A stretch of 64,000 nucleotides of DNA from Desulfofustis limnaeus (GTDB lineage: Bacteria > Desulfobacterota > Desulfobulbia > Desulfobulbales > Desulfocapsaceae): NCBI RefSeq assembly GCF_023169885.1, contig NZ_AP025516.1:3451501-3515500 (forward strand), given 5' to 3'. The notes below the pieces were generated by a model that saw nothing but the letters and a program-made list of their open reading frames with translations, had not been told where the DNA came from and did no database searches. Below, piece by piece: positions 4,426 through 39,439 of this stretch. A program made the position numbers and the translations under genes. Position 1 is the stretch's first letter. Each line of letters starts with the position of its first letter.

Positions 4426-5380
4426 TGATCGCGAGCCTCCGTTCCAGATAAAAGACGAATTGCGACAGCAACGAGGTGACGATCAGATACATGGCCGCCA
4501 CCACCAGCCAGATCTCGAACGTGGCAAAGGTGCTGGTGATGATTTCCCGGCCGGATTTGGTCAGATCGGTAATGGCAATAACCGAGACCAGCGACGAATC
4601 CTTGATCAGACTGATGAACTGCCCGGAAAGCGGCGGCAAAATCCGTTTAAACGCCTGCGGCAGAATGATCTCGACCATGGCCTGCGGCAGGCTCATGCCG
4701 AGCGAACGGGCCGCCTCCATCTGTCCCCGCGGAATCGACTGGATGCCGGCCCGCACGATCTCCGCCACGTAGGCGCCGGCAAACAGGGCGAGCGCCCCGA
4801 TGCCGGCGACGTTGCGATCGAGGTTGAAAACCGTGCCGATAAAGAAATAGGCAATGAAGATCTGGACCAGCAGCGGGGTGCCGCGGATGATCTCCACATA
4901 GATCGCCGCCAGCATGGAGACCGTATAATTCCGTGAGATCTTCATCAACCCAGCGACCAGGCCGATAAACAGACCGAGAACACTAGCGGCCGCCGAGATC
5001 CACATGGTAGTCCACAGCCCGGTCAGCAGAGGCCCCAACCGCCAGGTAACAACATAGCCGACGGTGTCGCCGCCGAACAGATCGTCTCCCTCGCTGACCC
5101 GCACCGACCCCTTGTCGACCTGCAGCACACGGGCCTGACCATCGATGGTCCGAACGGTTATCTCCGCTTTTTCCGCAGATTCGGTTATCGCTTCAACAAC
5201 CCCGTCCTGAGGGGTCTTGATCACATCCTCGGCCTTGTACAGAAAATACTGGGGAATCCGGTACCAGCGCCACTCATAGTCGATCCGTGAGACAGACCCG
5301 TAGATGCTGGCAGCCATTACAATCAGAATGGCTGCCAGCAGCAGCTGCCACGGCCAAAGCTTTTTTCGCGCCGTTTTCAC
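4418..5380 (-). CDS. Polar amino acid ABC transporter permease with N-terminal periplasmic insertion
   Basis: A 320-residue HisM/GlnP family permease. The C-terminal 200 residues carry the transport domain, including the EAA-like stretch [17 protein letters not shown] and [14 protein letters not shown]. Unusually, the first membrane segment (residues 11-28) is followed by about 80 polar, beta-rich residues containing [11 protein letters not shown] and [13 protein letters not shown] before the core begins near residue 110. That adds an exported domain to a protein normally of about 220 residues. It lies between the ATPase and the binding-protein genes. Confidence 0.88.
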
Positions 5381-5395
5381 GAATAGTGACCCGGA

Positions 5396-6190
5396 TTACT
5401 GAAGTTCTTTCTGCCAGGAGCCGTCGACGAACCACTTGTGATAAATCTTGTCGTAGGTACCGTCGTTTTTCACTTGAAAGAGGAAGTGGTTGAGCCAGTT
5501 CAGGAAATCATGATCACCCTTGCGAACTGCCCAGGCAAGCGGCTCGTAGGTAAACGGAGTGTCGACGTGATACATCTTGTCGTCGCCGCGCTGACCGATG
5601 GCGATGGCGTTGTACGGCAGATCGTAGACGAAGGCGTCGATCTTGCCGTTGACCAGCTCGAGAACGCCTTCCTGCTCGGTCTCGTAAGAAATATAAGTGG
5701 CGTTGGGGATCATCCGTTTAGCGGCTTGCTCGCCGGTGGTACCCAATTTTGAGCCGATCTTGTATTTCGCGTCGTTGAGGTCCTTGTAGGAGGTAATGGT
5801 CCCTTCAAGCTGTTTGGCCACCAGCAGGGTCTGGCCGATAACGATGTACGGTTCAGCGAAGTTGATGCTCATATTACGCTGCTGGGTCAGGGTCATGCCG
5901 GACATGATGATGTCGAACTTATCGGTCAACAGCGCCGGGATGATGCCGTCCCAGGCGGTGGACACCAGTTCCAGCTCGACCTCCATGGCTGCGGCCATCC
6001 GTTTGGCCATATCAACGTCGAAACCGATGATCTCCCCTTTTTGATTGACCAACTCAAACGGCATATAGCCCGGCTCCATGCCGACCCGCAGCTTACCCCG
6101 CTTCTGGATTTCCTCGAGAGCCCCGGCAAATACCGTCGAGGCGCAGAGCGCCAGGGTGAGTGCGAGCGCAATGGTCACAAGTCGTTTCAT
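5396..6190 (-). CDS. Polar amino acid ABC transporter periplasmic binding protein
   Basis: A 264-residue type 2 periplasmic binding protein of the SBP_bac_3 family. The start at 6190 was chosen because GGAGAGAAAG sits just upstream and MKRLVTIALALTLALCAS forms a signal peptide ending at VFA-GA; an in-frame ATG 51 codons upstream lacks these. The segments GKLRVGMEPGYMPFE, GEIIGFDVDMAKRMA and WDGIIPALLTDKFDIIMSGM are the canonical ligand-lobe motifs. It is first in the three-gene transporter run. Confidence 0.92.
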   Translation of the reverse strand: MKRLVTIALALTLALCASTVFAGALEEIQKRGKLRVGMEPGYMPFELVNQKGEIIGFDVDMAKRMAAAMEVELELVSTAWDGIIPALLTDKFDIIMSGMTLTQQRNMSINFAEPYIVIGQTLLVAKQLEGTITSYKDLNDAKYKIGSKLGTTGEQAAKRMIPNATYISYETEQEGVLELVNGKIDAFVYDLPYNAIAIGQRGDDKMYHVDTPFTYEPLAWAVRKGDHDFLNWLNHFLFQVKNDGTYDKIYHKWFVDGSWQKELQ

Positions 6191-34559: not shown

Positions 34560-35885
34560 TCAAACGATTCCCTGATCGATCATCGAATCGACGACCTTGA
34601 CAAAACCGGCGATATTCGCTCCGACCACGTAGTTCCCCCGGGCGCCATAACGCTCAGCGGTCCCTTTGCACATGGCGTGAATGTTCTTCATGATCACTTT
34701 CAGCCTGCGATCGACTTCATCTTTCGACCAGCTCAGCCGCATGCTGTTTTGCGCCATCTCCAGGCCGGACACGGAGACCCCCCCGGCGTTGGCCGCTTTG
34801 CCGGGCGCAAAGAGGACCTTGTTCTCCTGGAACAGTCGCACCGCTTCAGGGGTGCACGGCATATTCGCTACTTCGACAACCGCCTTGCAGCCATTTTTCA
34901 CCAGCAAGGCGGCATGGTCTCCGTCCAGTTCATTCTCCATGGCGGTGGGGACGGCAATATCGCACGGTACTTCCCAGGGCCGGCGATGGGGGACCCACTC
35001 GCATTTAAAGGTATCGGCATAATCCTTTGCCGACTTGCGATAGATGGTCCACAGCGTTGACAGGTATTTCAGCTTCTCTCCCTGTATACCGTCAGGATCA
35101 TGGACGTAACCGAACTCATCGGCAATGGTGACGACCTTGCCGCCAAGCTCATTTATTTTTTCAGTGACGTAGGTACCAACGTTGCCGTAGCCGGAGATGG
35201 TCACCGTTTTTCCGGCAATGCTCTCGTTGCGGGTGGCGAGCATCTCGGCAAGGAAATAGGCGGCCCCATAACCGGTTGCCTCCGGGCGGATCAAGCTGCC
35301 GCCCCAGTTGAGACTCTTGCCGGTGAGCACGCCGGTGAATTCATTGGCCAGCCGCTTGTACATCCCGTACAAATAGCCGATCTCGCGTGGACCAACCCCG
35401 ATATCACCAGCCGGAACGTCGGTGTCGGGACCGATATGACGGGCCAACTCGATCATGAAACTCTGACAAAAACGCATGACCTCGTGGTCGGACTTTCCTT
35501 TGGGATCGAAGTCCGCCCCCCCCTTTCCGCCGCCCATTGGCAGCGATGTCAGGGCGTTCTTGAAGACCTGTTCAAAGGCCAGAAACTTGAGAATTCCCAG
35601 ACGTACCGACGGGTGGAAGCGCAGCCCCCCCTTGTATGGTCCAATGGCGCTGTTCATCTGCACCCGAAAGCCGCGGTTGACCCTGATCTGGCCTTCATCA
35701 TCGACCCACGGCACCCGAAACATGATCACTCGCTCCGGCTCCACGATTCTCTCCAGGATCGCCTCCCGACGATACTGAGGATTTCTCTCCAGGACCGGGC
35801 GAACCGATTCCAGAACCTCACGCACCGCCTGATGAAACTCGTGTTCATGCGGATCTCGATCTATGACAAATTGTAAGCTGTCCAT
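34560..35885 (-). CDS. gdhA: Glutamate dehydrogenase, NADP-type fold
   Basis: A 441-residue enzyme interconverting 2-oxoglutarate plus ammonia and glutamate. GGAG before the ATG at 35885 favours this start over upstream ATGs. KGGLRFHPSVRLGILKFLAF and LTSLPMGGGKGGADFDPKGK hold the substrate and catalytic lysines, and ISGYGNVGTYVTEK is the dinucleotide fold. The hexameric bacterial/fungal class is indicated by length and motifs. It lies 173 bases downstream of the sigma-54-linked gene at 36059 on the same strand, so nitrogen-related co-regulation is possible. Confidence 0.94.
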   Translation of the reverse strand: MDSLQFVIDRDPHEHEFHQAVREVLESVRPVLERNPQYRREAILERIVEPERVIMFRVPWVDDEGQIRVNRGFRVQMNSAIGPYKGGLRFHPSVRLGILKFLAFEQVFKNALTSLPMGGGKGGADFDPKGKSDHEVMRFCQSFMIELARHIGPDTDVPAGDIGVGPREIGYLYGMYKRLANEFTGVLTGKSLNWGGSLIRPEATGYGAAYFLAEMLATRNESIAGKTVTISGYGNVGTYVTEKINELGGKVVTIADEFGYVHDPDGIQGEKLKYLSTLWTIYRKSAKDYADTFKCEWVPHRRPWEVPCDIAVPTAMENELDGDHAALLVKNGCKAVVEVANMPCTPEAVRLFQENKVLFAPGKAANAGGVSVSGLEMAQNSMRLSWSKDEVDRRLKVIMKNIHAMCKGTAERYGARGNYVVGANIAGFVKVVDSMIDQGIV

Positions 35886-36058
35886 TGCCATCTCCATTGT
35901 ACGGTCATGGCCGCCTTGACAAGGGCGTCGCCGCTCTTCCACAGTTCCTTGAGCAGGGACAGGTCCTGATGTCTACGGGGCCATGACGATCTTTTCGCTT
36001 TCGTTCAGAGGGTTCCGCTTTCCGCCCCTCCGAGGTTACCTGCGCCGGTGCAACAATA

Positions 36059-36556
36059 CTATGTGACGCTCCAATTGCCAACAGAATCAAGAGACCGGAA
36101 CTCGACGTGTCGCCGCTGATCAGCGTCGGTACCGAACAGATACAGACGGGCCTTTTCCTCGACCGTCACCAACGCTTCCTGGAAGGACCCCGGCTGGGGC
36201 ACCGCTAACTGCGTGGCCAGAGTCTTGCGCAGCAGTGCTTGCAGGGGAGGGGAAAAGGGATGCATCCTCCGGACCAACAGCGCCCCAAGGGATGCGCAGG
36301 CCAGGATTCGCATTTCAAAGTAGGTATTGTTATCACCCATGATCTTGATGACCTGACGGATCACCTGTTCACTGGGGTTATGGAGCAACTGGACTCGCTT
36401 CAAGGTCTCTTCGCGCAGCCGCCAGTTACCCTTGAACCCGAGAATCCGAGCGAGGCCTGGCTGGCACTCGTCAAGACGTCCGGCCTCGGTCAATTCTTCG
36501 ATGAGTTGCATGACCGGTCCCCAATCGATGAGGTTACCAAACGGATCAGCTTTCAT
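36059..36556 (-). CDS. Helical protein of unknown function, probable sigma-54 target
   Basis: A 165-residue, mostly alpha-helical protein not assigned to a known family. AAGGAGG lies six bases before the ATG at 36556. Paired amphipathic helices (PVMQLIEELTEAGRLDE, EQVIRQVIKIM, EMRILACASLGALLV, LQALLRKTLATQL) suggest a HEAT- or TPR-like solenoid. There is no signal peptide or metal motif. A near-consensus -24/-12 promoter lies about 155 bases upstream, with activator-like palindromes beyond it. A stem of CCCAGGA and TCCTGGG (36598-36614) lies in the leader. Confidence 0.65.
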   Translation of the reverse strand: MKADPFGNLIDWGPVMQLIEELTEAGRLDECQPGLARILGFKGNWRLREETLKRVQLLHNPSEQVIRQVIKIMGDNNTYFEMRILACASLGALLVRRMHPFSPPLQALLRKTLATQLAVPQPGSFQEALVTVEEKARLYLFGTDADQRRHVEFRSLDSVGNWSVT

Positions 36557-36709
36557 GGAGGGCCTCCTTGGCGTTTTCCACATCACCTGCGCACCACCCC
36601 AGGAAAATCCTGGGAGCACACCACCGCTTCACGGTCGTCTGCCGAGACGCGGTCATCGATACGGCTACGTGTTTGTTTCCCTCGGCAGGCGTCACCTGAC
36701 CTGCAGTTG

Positions 36710-36725
36710 AGCAAACACGGTGCCA
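36710..36725 (-). promoter_or_regulatory. Sigma-54 (-24/-12) promoter
   Basis: On the minus strand the sequence is TGGCAC, five bases, TTGCT, matching the RpoN consensus TGGCAC-N5-TTGCW at every fixed position. It faces the gene at 36059-36556. Transcription should start near 36698, leaving a leader of about 140 bases. A 15-bp dyad, ATATCA-N3-TGATAT at 36742-36756, lies between it and the upstream palindromes and partly resembles an IHF site. Confidence 0.8.
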
Positions 36726-36791
36726 GACTGGAGGAAAGCTTATATCACATTGATATGGTGTGTTTATTCAGAAACGAGGACACTTCCCCGC

Positions 36792-36829
36792 CACCGGCGA
36801 ATCGGGCGAGTTCGCCCGATTCGCCGGTG
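36792..36829. promoter_or_regulatory. 38-bp perfect palindrome, putative enhancer site 1 for the sigma-54 activator
   Basis: CACCGGCGAATCGGGCGA is followed by GT and its exact 18-base inverse complement. It lies about 70-105 bases upstream of the -24/-12 promoter, the usual range for activator binding. There is no U-tract on either strand. The inner half-sites GGGCGA and TCGCCC recur in the second dyad at 36880-36898. A transcript hairpin after the regulator gene is an alternative reading. Confidence 0.6.
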
Positions 36830-36879
36830 CAAGAAAGACAGAAAGACTAATAATCAAGGAAGTTGCTCTACGGGGCGTT

Positions 36880-36898
36880 ATCGCCCCTAGTGGGCGAT
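36880..36898. promoter_or_regulatory. Second GGGCGA dyad, putative enhancer site 2
   Basis: ATCGCCC, five bases, then GGGCGAT forms a perfect 7-bp inverted repeat ending nine bases from the regulator stop codon. It uses the same half-site as the 38-bp palindrome at 36792-36829. An overlapping stem, GGGGCG-TTAT-CGCCCC, at 36872-36887 could also fold in RNA. Confidence 0.5.
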
Positions 36899-36907
36899 TC
36901 TGACGTA

Positions 36908-38728
36908 TCAGCCAGATATCCGACGGGAGAGGGCCCGACGCGAGATGCCGAGCAGGGCCGCAGCCTTGGTTCGGTTGCCGCCTGAACGTTGCAGCGCCTG
37001 GGCAACGAGTGACGCCTCCACCTGTTTCACAGCGTGTTCGAGATTGAGCGTCGGCACGACCTCGAGCGCCGGTCCGCAATCGGAGGCGGGGGAAATGAAT
37101 TCGAGCCGTCCCAGGGTGATATAGCGCTGAACCACATTCCGCAACTCCCGGACATTGCCCGGCCAATCATACTCGAGCAGGCTGTCCATGACTTGTCCCG
37201 GGATCTTGAATGCTGGGGAGGCGATCGTCTCGACAAAATGGTCGACGAGCAGGGGAATATCCTGTTTCCGCTGGCGCAGCGGTGGCAGACGAATTTGGAT
37301 AACCTGGAGACGGTAGAAAAAATCGTTGCGCATCAACCCGCGGCTCACTTTCTCTCCCAGCGGCACGTTGGCGGCGGAGACGATCCGCAAATCCGGGTAG
37401 CTGGTTACCGTTCCGCCGATCGGCCGATACCCGCCCCCTTCGATAGCCCTGAGGAGTTTAGCCTGCATAGCCAGGGACAGCTCGCCAACCTCATCAAGAA
37501 AAAGCGTGCCATGGTCGGCGTCATGGAGATAGCCAGCGGCGTCGGCGTGGGCTCCCGAATAGGCTCCCTTAAGAGTACCGAAAAACTCCCGCTCAAAGAG
37601 CGTTTCCTGCACCGCCGCGCAATTCACTGCGACAAAGTGCTTGCCCTTTCTCTGACTGTGGTCGTGGATGGCTCTGGCCACCAGTTCCTTCCCGGACCCG
37701 GATTCACCGAAGATTGCCACACTGGCATCGCATGCTGCCGCTTTCAGGATAAGCTCGAAAACCTCCTGCATCAGCGGTGAACGGCCAATGATGTTGCCCA
37801 GGCGATAGCGATCCTTCAGAGAAGAGCGAAGCAGGCGATTTTCGTCATGCAACTGGGCGGCCAGATGCTGCGCCACCACCTGCTGCTCTTTGATCTCGGT
37901 CACATCGTTGAAGGTTGAAAGCAGGGCGGGCCGCCCTTTGAACATGATCGGCGTATGCGAGGCCCGGATCCAGGTGATGGCCCCGTGCCGAGTAGGTTGT
38001 TTGAGCTCCTCGTGCCTCTCGCTGATACCGGCCTCAAGGTGGTGATACAGGTCAGAAATGGCGCTCACGTTGCCAGTTCCCGGGTCACCAACCGGGGTAT
38101 CGATGACCTGCTCGGGGGTATCGATACCGAACATCCGGCAAAAGGCAGGGTTGACATAGTGTATCCGGTTGTCCTGGACCAGGCTGACCCCATCGGTAAC
38201 CTTTTCCACCAGTATCCGGTAACGCTCTTCACTTTCCCGCAGAGCCTCTTCCGATACTTTTATCCATAACACCCGGCTCAACCGCTCACCGATGGCGTGA
38301 AGCAGATGGGACTCCTCCTCCAGAAACAAGCCGGATTCACCCCCGGCTGCCGGCTCTTTATAGAAGACGTCCAGATCACCGACAGGTGTGCCGTGCAGCA
38401 TGATCGCGGTGTTCAGTCTCCTTCGGGTTGTCGTGAAATTGGCGGAGCGATATTCCTTGCCATCCAACCTGATTCGCGCACTCGCCCGCTCAGGGAATTG
38501 CAGGGCGGCCGGGATCAGCTCAACGGCCCGCTCAAGAATCCAAGGCAACGTGACGTCCTGGGTTTCGACCAGATTGGAGATGCCATACAGACAGTTCAGT
38601 TCCTTGACCCTTTCTTCAAGGGCGTTGGCCATGGTTGATCCGGACAGGAGCGGAGAGGCACGGAGGAATTCCGTTTTACCGGCCTGGGCGGCCGGCGTCG
38701 GAGCTGCTCGCTGGTCTTGTTTGGCCAT
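36908..38728 (-). CDS. Sigma-54-dependent transcriptional activator with GAF-like and PAS domains
   Basis: A 606-residue enhancer-binding protein. A GAF-like region (about 33-160) and a PAS domain (about 163-283) precede the AAA+ domain with Walker A GESGSGKE (341-348), Walker B TLFLDEVGEL and the arginine-finger region FFYRLQVIQIRLPPLR. The sigma-54 contact loop reads GAYSGA (388-393) rather than GAFTGA. A Fis-type HTH ends the protein (NRTKAAALLGISRRALSRR). The start is uncertain: 38728 is used because it follows rnk by 35 bases, but ATG 38632 is also possible. It follows rnk on the same strand and precedes its likely target. Confidence 0.85.
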   Translation of the reverse strand: MAKQDQRAAPTPAAQAGKTEFLRASPLLSGSTMANALEERVKELNCLYGISNLVETQDVTLPWILERAVELIPAALQFPERASARIRLDGKEYRSANFTTTRRRLNTAIMLHGTPVGDLDVFYKEPAAGGESGLFLEEESHLLHAIGERLSRVLWIKVSEEALRESEERYRILVEKVTDGVSLVQDNRIHYVNPAFCRMFGIDTPEQVIDTPVGDPGTGNVSAISDLYHHLEAGISERHEELKQPTRHGAITWIRASHTPIMFKGRPALLSTFNDVTEIKEQQVVAQHLAAQLHDENRLLRSSLKDRYRLGNIIGRSPLMQEVFELILKAAACDASVAIFGESGSGKELVARAIHDHSQRKGKHFVAVNCAAVQETLFEREFFGTLKGAYSGAHADAAGYLHDADHGTLFLDEVGELSLAMQAKLLRAIEGGGYRPIGGTVTSYPDLRIVSAANVPLGEKVSRGLMRNDFFYRLQVIQIRLPPLRQRKQDIPLLVDHFVETIASPAFKIPGQVMDSLLEYDWPGNVRELRNVVQRYITLGRLEFISPASDCGPALEVVPTLNLEHAVKQVEASLVAQALQRSGGNRTKAAALLGISRRALSRRISG

Positions 38729-38763: not shown

Positions 38764-39177
38764 TCAACGGTGATATTCGCCTGAACGTTCCGGCTGATAG
38801 GTAATTTCTTTGACCTTGACGCGCATCACACCTCCCCCCGGTTTCGGCCATTCGATTTCATCGCCCTGAGAAAGGCCGAGCAGAGCGCTGCCCACGGGAG
38901 CGAGAACAGAAATGGTCGATCCGTCCACTTTGGAATCCTTCGGGTACACCAGGCTGAGACAGAATTCCTCACCGGAGGAATTTATGACAAAACAAACTTT
39001 TGAATTCATGGTCACGACCGAGGGAGGCATCTCCTGTGGATCGACGATTTCAGCCCGATCCAATTCGGCTTCCAACTCCGCCTGACTGGGAAAGGCGTTT
39101 TCGGGTAAGGACGCGAGTAGGTCTTCAAGCCTTTCCGCATCAAGGGAGGAAATAATAAGCTTCGGTTGATGAGACAT
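38764..39177 (-). CDS. rnk: Rnk/GreA-type nucleoside diphosphate kinase regulator
   Basis: A 137-residue protein with a short N-terminal helical hairpin and a C-terminal FKBP-like GreA/GreB domain (NSKVCFVINSSGEEFCLSLVYP to GSALLGLSQGDEIEW). Rnk proteins bind RNA polymerase but lack the acidic GreA fingertips, matching the short coiled coil here. AGAGGATATCC precedes the ATG at 39177. It probably shares a transcript with the activator gene 35 bases downstream. Confidence 0.85.
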   Translation of the reverse strand: MSHQPKLIISSLDAERLEDLLASLPENAFPSQAELEAELDRAEIVDPQEMPPSVVTMNSKVCFVINSSGEEFCLSLVYPKDSKVDGSTISVLAPVGSALLGLSQGDEIEWPKPGGGVMRVKVKEITYQPERSGEYHR

Positions 39178-39439
39178 TGGATATCCTCTTGTGGTTACCG
39201 AGGTGGACACACCATTCAGTTTCTCTGCGCCAGCACCGTTCCCGGTTCGGTGAACGGGTCAAAAAAGCTACAGCCCCTATCTCTTGATTATAGGGCAACC
39301 AACCGGAGAATGCCACTTGTCAAAAAAACTCCCTCGTCATCAACCGTTGCACACCGTCAAAATACGTTTGGAACCGCGTAGAGAGCGGAAAACAGGGCAT
39401 CACACCAGGACCGAGCCAAGAAAAGTCCGGGGAAAAACC

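Follow-up and report, generated by a model that had tools for sequence, protein, structure and literature searches.

A candidate sigma-54 circuit for NADP(H) enzymes in Desulfofustis limnaeus and related sulfate reducers

We identified, in a 64,000-nucleotide stretch of the Desulfofustis limnaeus genome (hereafter the window), what is very probably a sigma-54 circuit dedicated to one operon and controlling NADP(H) enzymes. A one-component enhancer-binding protein (EBP) with a cytoplasmic GAF-PAS sensor would bind a pair of GGGCGAnnTCGCCC sites, 85 and 154 bp upstream of the promoter's -24 element, IHF or a relative would bend the DNA between these enhancer sites and the promoter, and the AAA+ ring of the EBP would open the sigma-54 promoter. 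The transcript would carry HEL, a 165-residue protein predicted to be all-helical, followed by pntAA-pntAB-pntB in most relatives and by gdhA in the window's genome, and the signal presumably reflects NADP(H), redox or energy state. The sequence evidence for this circuit consists of domain make-up, sites, spacing, conservation, gene order, the presence of rpoN and the lack of a PntB match in the window's genome. Against it we count the departed GAFTGA loop of the EBP, a proximal dyad that is weak in 12 of 26 loci, and the shared ancestry of the loci compared.

Layout of the locus

The D. limnaeus genome consists of one contig of 4,232,141 bases. All genes of the locus lie on the minus strand, in the order Rnk, EBP, control region, HEL and NADP-specific gdhA, with the following features.

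38764-39210, minus strand: Rnk-type gene, upstream neighbour (NF004396, 152.5 bits, cut-off 109)
36908-38728, minus strand: EBP (PF00158, PAS and HTH_8; sensor model and fold matches)
36892-36897, minus strand: outer half-site TCGCCC, part of an outer site some 18-19 bp upstream of the distal dyad
36873-36886, minus strand: distal dyad GGGCGATAACGCCC, centred 154 bp upstream of the -24 element, 11/12 to consensus
36792-36829, minus strand: 38-bp palindrome enclosing the proximal dyad, centre 85 bp above the -24 element
36804-36817, minus strand: proximal dyad core GGGCGAACTCGCCC, 12/12 to the dyad consensus
36743-36755, minus strand: IHF-like site TATCAATGTGATA, matching 8/9 positions of WATCAANNNNTTR
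36710-36725, minus strand: sigma-54 promoter TGGCAC-CGTGT-TTGCT, written TGGCACCGTGTTTGCT, 12/12 to a soft consensus
36059-36556, minus strand: HEL, 165-residue predicted all-helical protein, AGGAGG 6 bases 5' of the ATG
34560-35942, minus strand: gdhA, NADP-specific glutamate dehydrogenase (NF006929, 727.6 bits, cut-off 536)

The initial annotation of this DNA had placed Rnk upstream and a glutamate dehydrogenase downstream, and had proposed a 165-residue reading frame with a strong ribosome-binding site; the NF004396 and NF006929 matches and the AGGAGG motif bear out all of these. It had also made the circuit dependent on an rpoN gene, which the genome contains (one Sigma54_DBD match, 216.6 bits). 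We treat the Rnk gene as a neighbour rather than as a demonstrated member of the circuit. Proteins of the GreA/Rnk type occur near HEL in three loci (the window at 38764-39210, L076:5862-6725 and L077:4198-4599), a proximity that may be coincidental.

The enhancer-binding protein

The EBP gene ends at 36908, as first annotated, and its reading frame is open to 38851. The likely start, chosen by comparison with relatives, is the ATG at 38728, giving 606 amino acids; it was preferred because the first ATG of the frame, at 38851, overlaps the Rnk gene. The protein combines a GAF-like and PAS sensor, in which the PAS domain of the first description is recognised by Pfam, with a sigma-54 AAA+ domain (PF00158, 193.3 bits against a cut-off of 20.2) bearing the Walker motifs GESGSGKE and LFLDE, and a Fis-type HTH at the C terminus (HTH_8, 47.9 bits, cut-off 22). 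Among the matches listed (25 of 35), it falls below every NCBIfam equivalog cut-off, including those of NorR (260.8 bits against 476) and DhaR (159.7 bits against 551).

The sigma-54-contact loop of the window's EBP, in the AAA+ domain at about 37500-37800, reads GAYSGA and not GAFTGA. Departures from GAFTGA are seen in 25 of the 26 orthologs defined below, in which the loops are GAFSSA (13), GAFSGA (7), GSFSGA (3), GAYSGA (1, the window), GSFSSA (1) and GAFTGA (1), while GAFTGA is present in 15 of 19 other EBPs parsed. In the portions of PMC4641369 and PMC6615313 covered here, a GAFSGA loop keeps activity, and the GAYSGA and GAFSSA loops are not mentioned. NorR with a serine at the second glycine of the loop is active without nitric oxide, according to the part of PMC2941729 covered. 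By analogy with that partial account, the 14 SSA loops might be a natural form of the change that loosens GAF control in NorR, a parallel that is suggestive only. The natural GAFSSA and GAFSGA loops provide a ready series for studying restraint of the sigma-54-contact loop.

The control region

The promoter TGGCAC-N5-TTGCT at 36710-36725, as initially proposed, is the best intergenic match, scoring 12/12 with a runner-up of 9 against a soft consensus that we wrote ourselves; promoters were taken as the best match per region in every locus. The transcription start would fall near 36699, about 12 nt past the -12 element. Above this -24/-12 promoter, the GGGCGAnnTCGCCC dyads form paired sites. 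The 38-bp palindrome at 36792-36829 has, as described from the outset, 18-bp perfect arms around a 2-bp centre. A 19-bp dyad also exists at 36880-36898 as first described, but its register was not upheld: its arms come from two separate sites, and the distal dyad conserved in relatives is GGGCGATAACGCCC at 36873-36886. L070 and L072 have a full dyad at the outer site, of which the window has one half.

We additionally identified an IHF-like site between the proximal dyad and the promoter, which the initial annotation had missed. Six genes of the HU/IHF family are present in the window's genome, of which three could be typed; the best match of one family member, L121, is IHF-alpha at 99.2 bits, under the cut-off of 111.

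The exact dyad occurs at one site in the window's genome, against two for a reversed-pattern control, and therefore the dyad alone proves little. It is by their position and conservation that the sites exceed chance. A dispersed repeat was also considered and dropped, as the intergenic DNA, searched against the genome, matched only its own locus and, in the opposite orientation, its own palindrome.

Conservation of the module in relatives

A single-sequence scan of genome contigs with HEL found no relative, and an alignment query recovered 24 loci in named records (Desulfobulbaceae, Desulfobacteraceae, Desulfosarcina, Desulfopila and the like). HEL is present in 9 of 93 family genomes and 4 of 395 phylum-drawn genomes, the window's own genome being counted in both. 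The 24 named loci, together with the window, G014, G271, G407 and G413, make 29 non-redundant HEL loci. Two copies of the module, L058 and L060, occur in Desulfosarcina widdelii, where each pntB is followed by a protein similar to the N-terminal sensor of the EBP, and the HEL reading frame at L040:3197-3600 (a metagenome-assembled genome, G027, the locus also listed as L068) shifts at a run of C, through a real mutation or a sequencing error.

An orthologous EBP lies directly upstream of HEL in 26 of the 29 loci and is 59-72% identical to that of the window; the L076 ortholog is in two pieces of 48 and 65% identity, as if frameshifted. In L077 and G413 a different EBP is found upstream of HEL (42 and 40% identity), and in G407 an EBP of 41% identity lies about 2.5 kb beyond pntB. 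EBP matches were obtained in all 58 genomes compared (own genome included; at most 21-22 candidates scored per genome), with scores above 800 bits in only the four that have HEL, and a next best of 348. All 26 orthologs share the recognition helix GISRRAL[FS]R[KR], and GISRRAL is missing from the EBPs of L077, G413 and G407 and from 26 other EBPs, some of them compared without their last residues. Binding of the EBP to the GGGCGA dyads is thus proposed from their co-conservation and this shared recognition helix.

A -24/-12 promoter fitting YGGCAY-N5-TTGC is present in all 26 ortholog loci, with dyads centred at -151 to -154 (distal) and -82 to -85 (proximal) relative to it. At these fixed offsets the distal dyad scores at least 10/12 in 22 of 26 loci (L064 and L065 being unscorable there) and the proximal dyad in 14 of 26, each at a frequency of 0.0001 in dinucleotide shuffles; an IHF-like site of at least 8/9 occupies the same place in 18 of 26 (shuffle frequency 0.0044), and all such counts over related loci are inflated by shared ancestry. 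By eye, 25 of the 26 loci have one dyad or the other at 10/12 or better. The proximal dyad is weak (7-9 of 12) in 12 of the 26 loci, often with one good half. Apart from the promoter, the half-sites and some of the IHF-like site, columns with a 60% majority base are rare. Thus EBP, dyads, promoter and reading frame occur together in 26 of the 29 HEL loci, in agreement with the expectation of the initial annotation that sites and promoter should be conserved with the gene pair.

The spacing of these elements bears on a highly improbable alternative, in which the dyads are RNA hairpins (terminator, processing or insulation after the EBP gene) and not protein-binding DNA sites. In its favour, a predicted fold of -63.8 kcal/mol (z -6.15) was obtained for 128 nt spanning both dyads, and the dyads stand at a near-constant distance from the EBP stop in most loci: this stop lies 170-207 bases from the promoter in 24 of 25 usable loci, and 130 in L064, although part of that constancy may be inheritance. 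However, no terminator-like site was called at the dyads, and terminator and attenuator readings of them were rated low; only about 7-9 bp of the arms are kept in most relatives. Where the distance from the EBP stop varies (130 in L064, 207 in L070, 198 in L072), the dyads track the promoter, their offset from it unchanged, and not the EBP stop. The dyad offsets likewise stay constant, even though HEL lies anywhere from 80 to 495 bases past the promoter. These observations argue for protein-binding sites, with an additional local hairpin role possible for the long outer arms, which are seen in the window only.

Genome-wide specificity of the site

We scanned the 93 family genomes for a composite pattern of GGGCG-N4-CGCCC, 60-90 bases and GGCAY-N5-TTGC. 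There were 11 hits in 11 genomes, against none for a reversed control: nine lie at the HEL locus in the nine HEL genomes, and two are in non-HEL genomes (2 of 84, G087 and G012). The scan of the window's genome revealed no composite site other than that at HEL.

These results also bear on a very unlikely alternative, that the sites and promoter are real but worked by another regulator, with the adjacent EBP acting elsewhere. The window's genome does hold many EBPs (62 candidates at first look, 21 scored). Yet the composite site is present in every family genome with HEL (9 of 9), and the 26 orthologs adjoining HEL have one recognition helix in common; the intergenic stretches of L077 and G413, where other EBPs lie upstream, contain no dyad of 9/12 or better, and the window's genome has no further composite site. 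By eye, a promoter of the YGGCAY-N5-TTGC type was not seen in G407.

Downstream genes

PntAA is found downstream of HEL in 21 of the 29 loci, in most of them accompanied by PntAB and PntB. L057 has it at a distance of 2.8 kb and a short PntAA-like remnant immediately after HEL. PntAA was not found beside HEL in L063, L074, L076, L077, G271, G413 and the window, and L075 ends at a contig edge. The initial proposal of a circuit driving a helical protein is supported, but HEL would thus not be the sole target. The gdhA gene occupies the place downstream of HEL in the window. In L056 an intact copy separates HEL from pntAA, in L061 a gdhA fragment is found at that position, and in L074 a divergent gdhA lies beside the EBP.

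We found no PntB match in the window's genome. Among nine genomes searched, orthologous PntAA (63-78%) was identified in three (those of L058 and L076, and G407), matches of 30-43% only in G271 and the genomes of L063, L074, L075 and L077, and no match in G413. In some loci without pnt, the downstream genes were typed and revealed no common theme; they include dihydroorotate dehydrogenase-like and EF-hand genes in L063, GreA/B-type and methyltransferase genes in L076, and NorB in G271.

In the window, gdhA is the probable second target, and would be co-transcribed with HEL. No terminator-like site was called between them. Ahead of gdhA, a single sigma-70-like match, at chance level (one found, 1.2 expected), overlaps the end of HEL, and therefore gdhA may have its own promoter; its GTG start at 35942 may lie upstream of the true start.

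Across these loci, HEL and the EBP appear from gene order to be the more constant core, and the NADP(H) enzymes a usual, exchangeable output. We infer from the enzymes, as a majority rule across loci, that the theme is NADP(H) supply. The initial annotation had hinted at control by nitrogen or energy state; NADP(H) supply is better supported than nitrogen alone because transhydrogenase genes follow in 21 of 29 loci, and gdhA fits both.

The HEL protein

HEL has no Pfam match at E<=0.1 and no NCBIfam match at E<=0.01. In an alignment of 25 HEL proteins, which define a previously unannotated protein family, DPF..L..W at the start is invariant and the core reads NWR.RE. The structural model is all-helical (pLDDT 89.2) and may be a paired-helix solenoid resembling an ARM/HEAT-type fold. 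Its best VIA Z is 13.8, to karyopherin-beta2 (132 residues, 3.2 Å), near the level that the tool calls common for helical repeats, and its best Foldseek E is 0.013; fold searches gave only generic repeat proteins and no function.

Folds of the ARM/HEAT type commonly bind proteins, and for this reason HEL may be read as a binding adaptor. Its partner may be the EBP, on which it would then feed back, a reading that we adopt only tentatively. About as plausible, and equally short of an even chance, is a role in assisting or stabilising the NADP(H) enzymes, with no connection to the EBP. This would suit the placement of HEL in the same operon as those enzymes, with PntAA next in 21 of 29 loci, the lone transhydrogenase domain III after HEL in L077 and G271, and the case of G407, where HEL and pnt occur but a close EBP ortholog does not. 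It would sit less easily with the retention of HEL in the window's genome, where PntB has no match, or with L063, L074 and L076, where HEL stands beside the EBP without adjoining pnt, although the L076 genome holds orthologous PntAA elsewhere.

An extension of the adaptor role is more speculative, and we consider it unlikely: HEL might be a new kind of sigma-54 activator regulator, whose solenoid binds the EBP and reports the state of an NADP(H)-binding protein such as domain III, so that sulfate reducers would have a feedback loop for NADPH. The EBP in question has, in 14 of the 26 orthologs, the loop serine that frees NorR from its signal.

Comparison with known systems

The norR gene is divergent from its target, and here EBP and target are co-directional. 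NorR-norVW otherwise resembles the present circuit in its GAF sensor, its AAA+ domain and multiple enhancer sites upstream of the sigma-54 promoter that drives the neighbouring operon (in the part of PMC2941729 covered). In contrast to NorR, the EBP described here has an extra PAS domain, another site sequence, NADP(H) enzyme targets and loops that are mostly GAFSSA or GAFSGA. In the part of PMC4641369 covered, Desulfovibrio regulons of single-component EBPs, such as that of DVU2275 with its pyruvate formate-lyase operon, similarly combine an EBP with a co-located, conserved sigma-54 promoter and a predicted palindrome, but the palindrome there is AT-rich and the targets differ. GGGCGA, transhydrogenase and glutamate dehydrogenase were not found in the text of PMC4641369.

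DhaR shares the tandem GAF-PAS sensor, and in a fold search with the EBP sensor the DhaR(N)-DhaK structure 4lrx was recovered at rank 44 (E 6.6e-06, TMq 0.35), a partial match no better than that to many PAS proteins; no dihydroxyacetone kinase genes were noted in the HEL loci. DhaR is a GAF-PAS EBP governed by the binding of enzyme subunits, and by analogy offers a precedent for protein-protein control by an operon product. The HEL model may share the paired-helix solenoid of HEAT/ARM repeat proteins, although the window's HEL has no Pfam or NCBIfam family match.

In searches of the open-licence PMC literature, no article containing GGGCGATATCGCCC was found, and the circuit is not described in the titles or abstract openings listed. 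Its elements are those of known sigma-54 circuits; the combination, the site, the target and the HEL family were not met in those listings. A testable control circuit is thereby proposed for NADP(H) enzymes in sulfate reducers, and a likely target and DNA site are assigned to an EBP group that lies below the NCBIfam equivalog cut-offs among the matches listed.

Additional features of the related loci

Two small reading frames recur near HEL. One (MELVKNK...) lies between the promoter and HEL in 10 loci, and a Cys-rich frame follows HEL in four, both by tblastn; the L062 copies (4696-4926 and 5473-5886) have no Pfam or NCBIfam match.

We additionally observed tandem NADP-binding domains III in PntB in 14 of the 17 non-redundant loci where a PntB with domain III lies within reach (L062:7577-9553, and also L055, L058, L060, L061, L066-L070, L072, L073 and L039). 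Three domains III are present in L069 and L073, and in L056 the second is cut by the contig end; L064, L065 and G407 have a single domain III. In L062 the two domain III copies share 65% identity over 156 residues. Lone domain III reading frames occur after HEL in L077 (5398-6201) and G271 (L095:6809-7273). By eye, a PntB match of at least 60% within the family is confined to eight of the nine HEL genomes, in seven of which it is tandem, and the other 42 family genomes with a PntB match (38-50%) lack a second domain III. The HEL-linked tandem domain III raises a separate question on NADP(H) binding.
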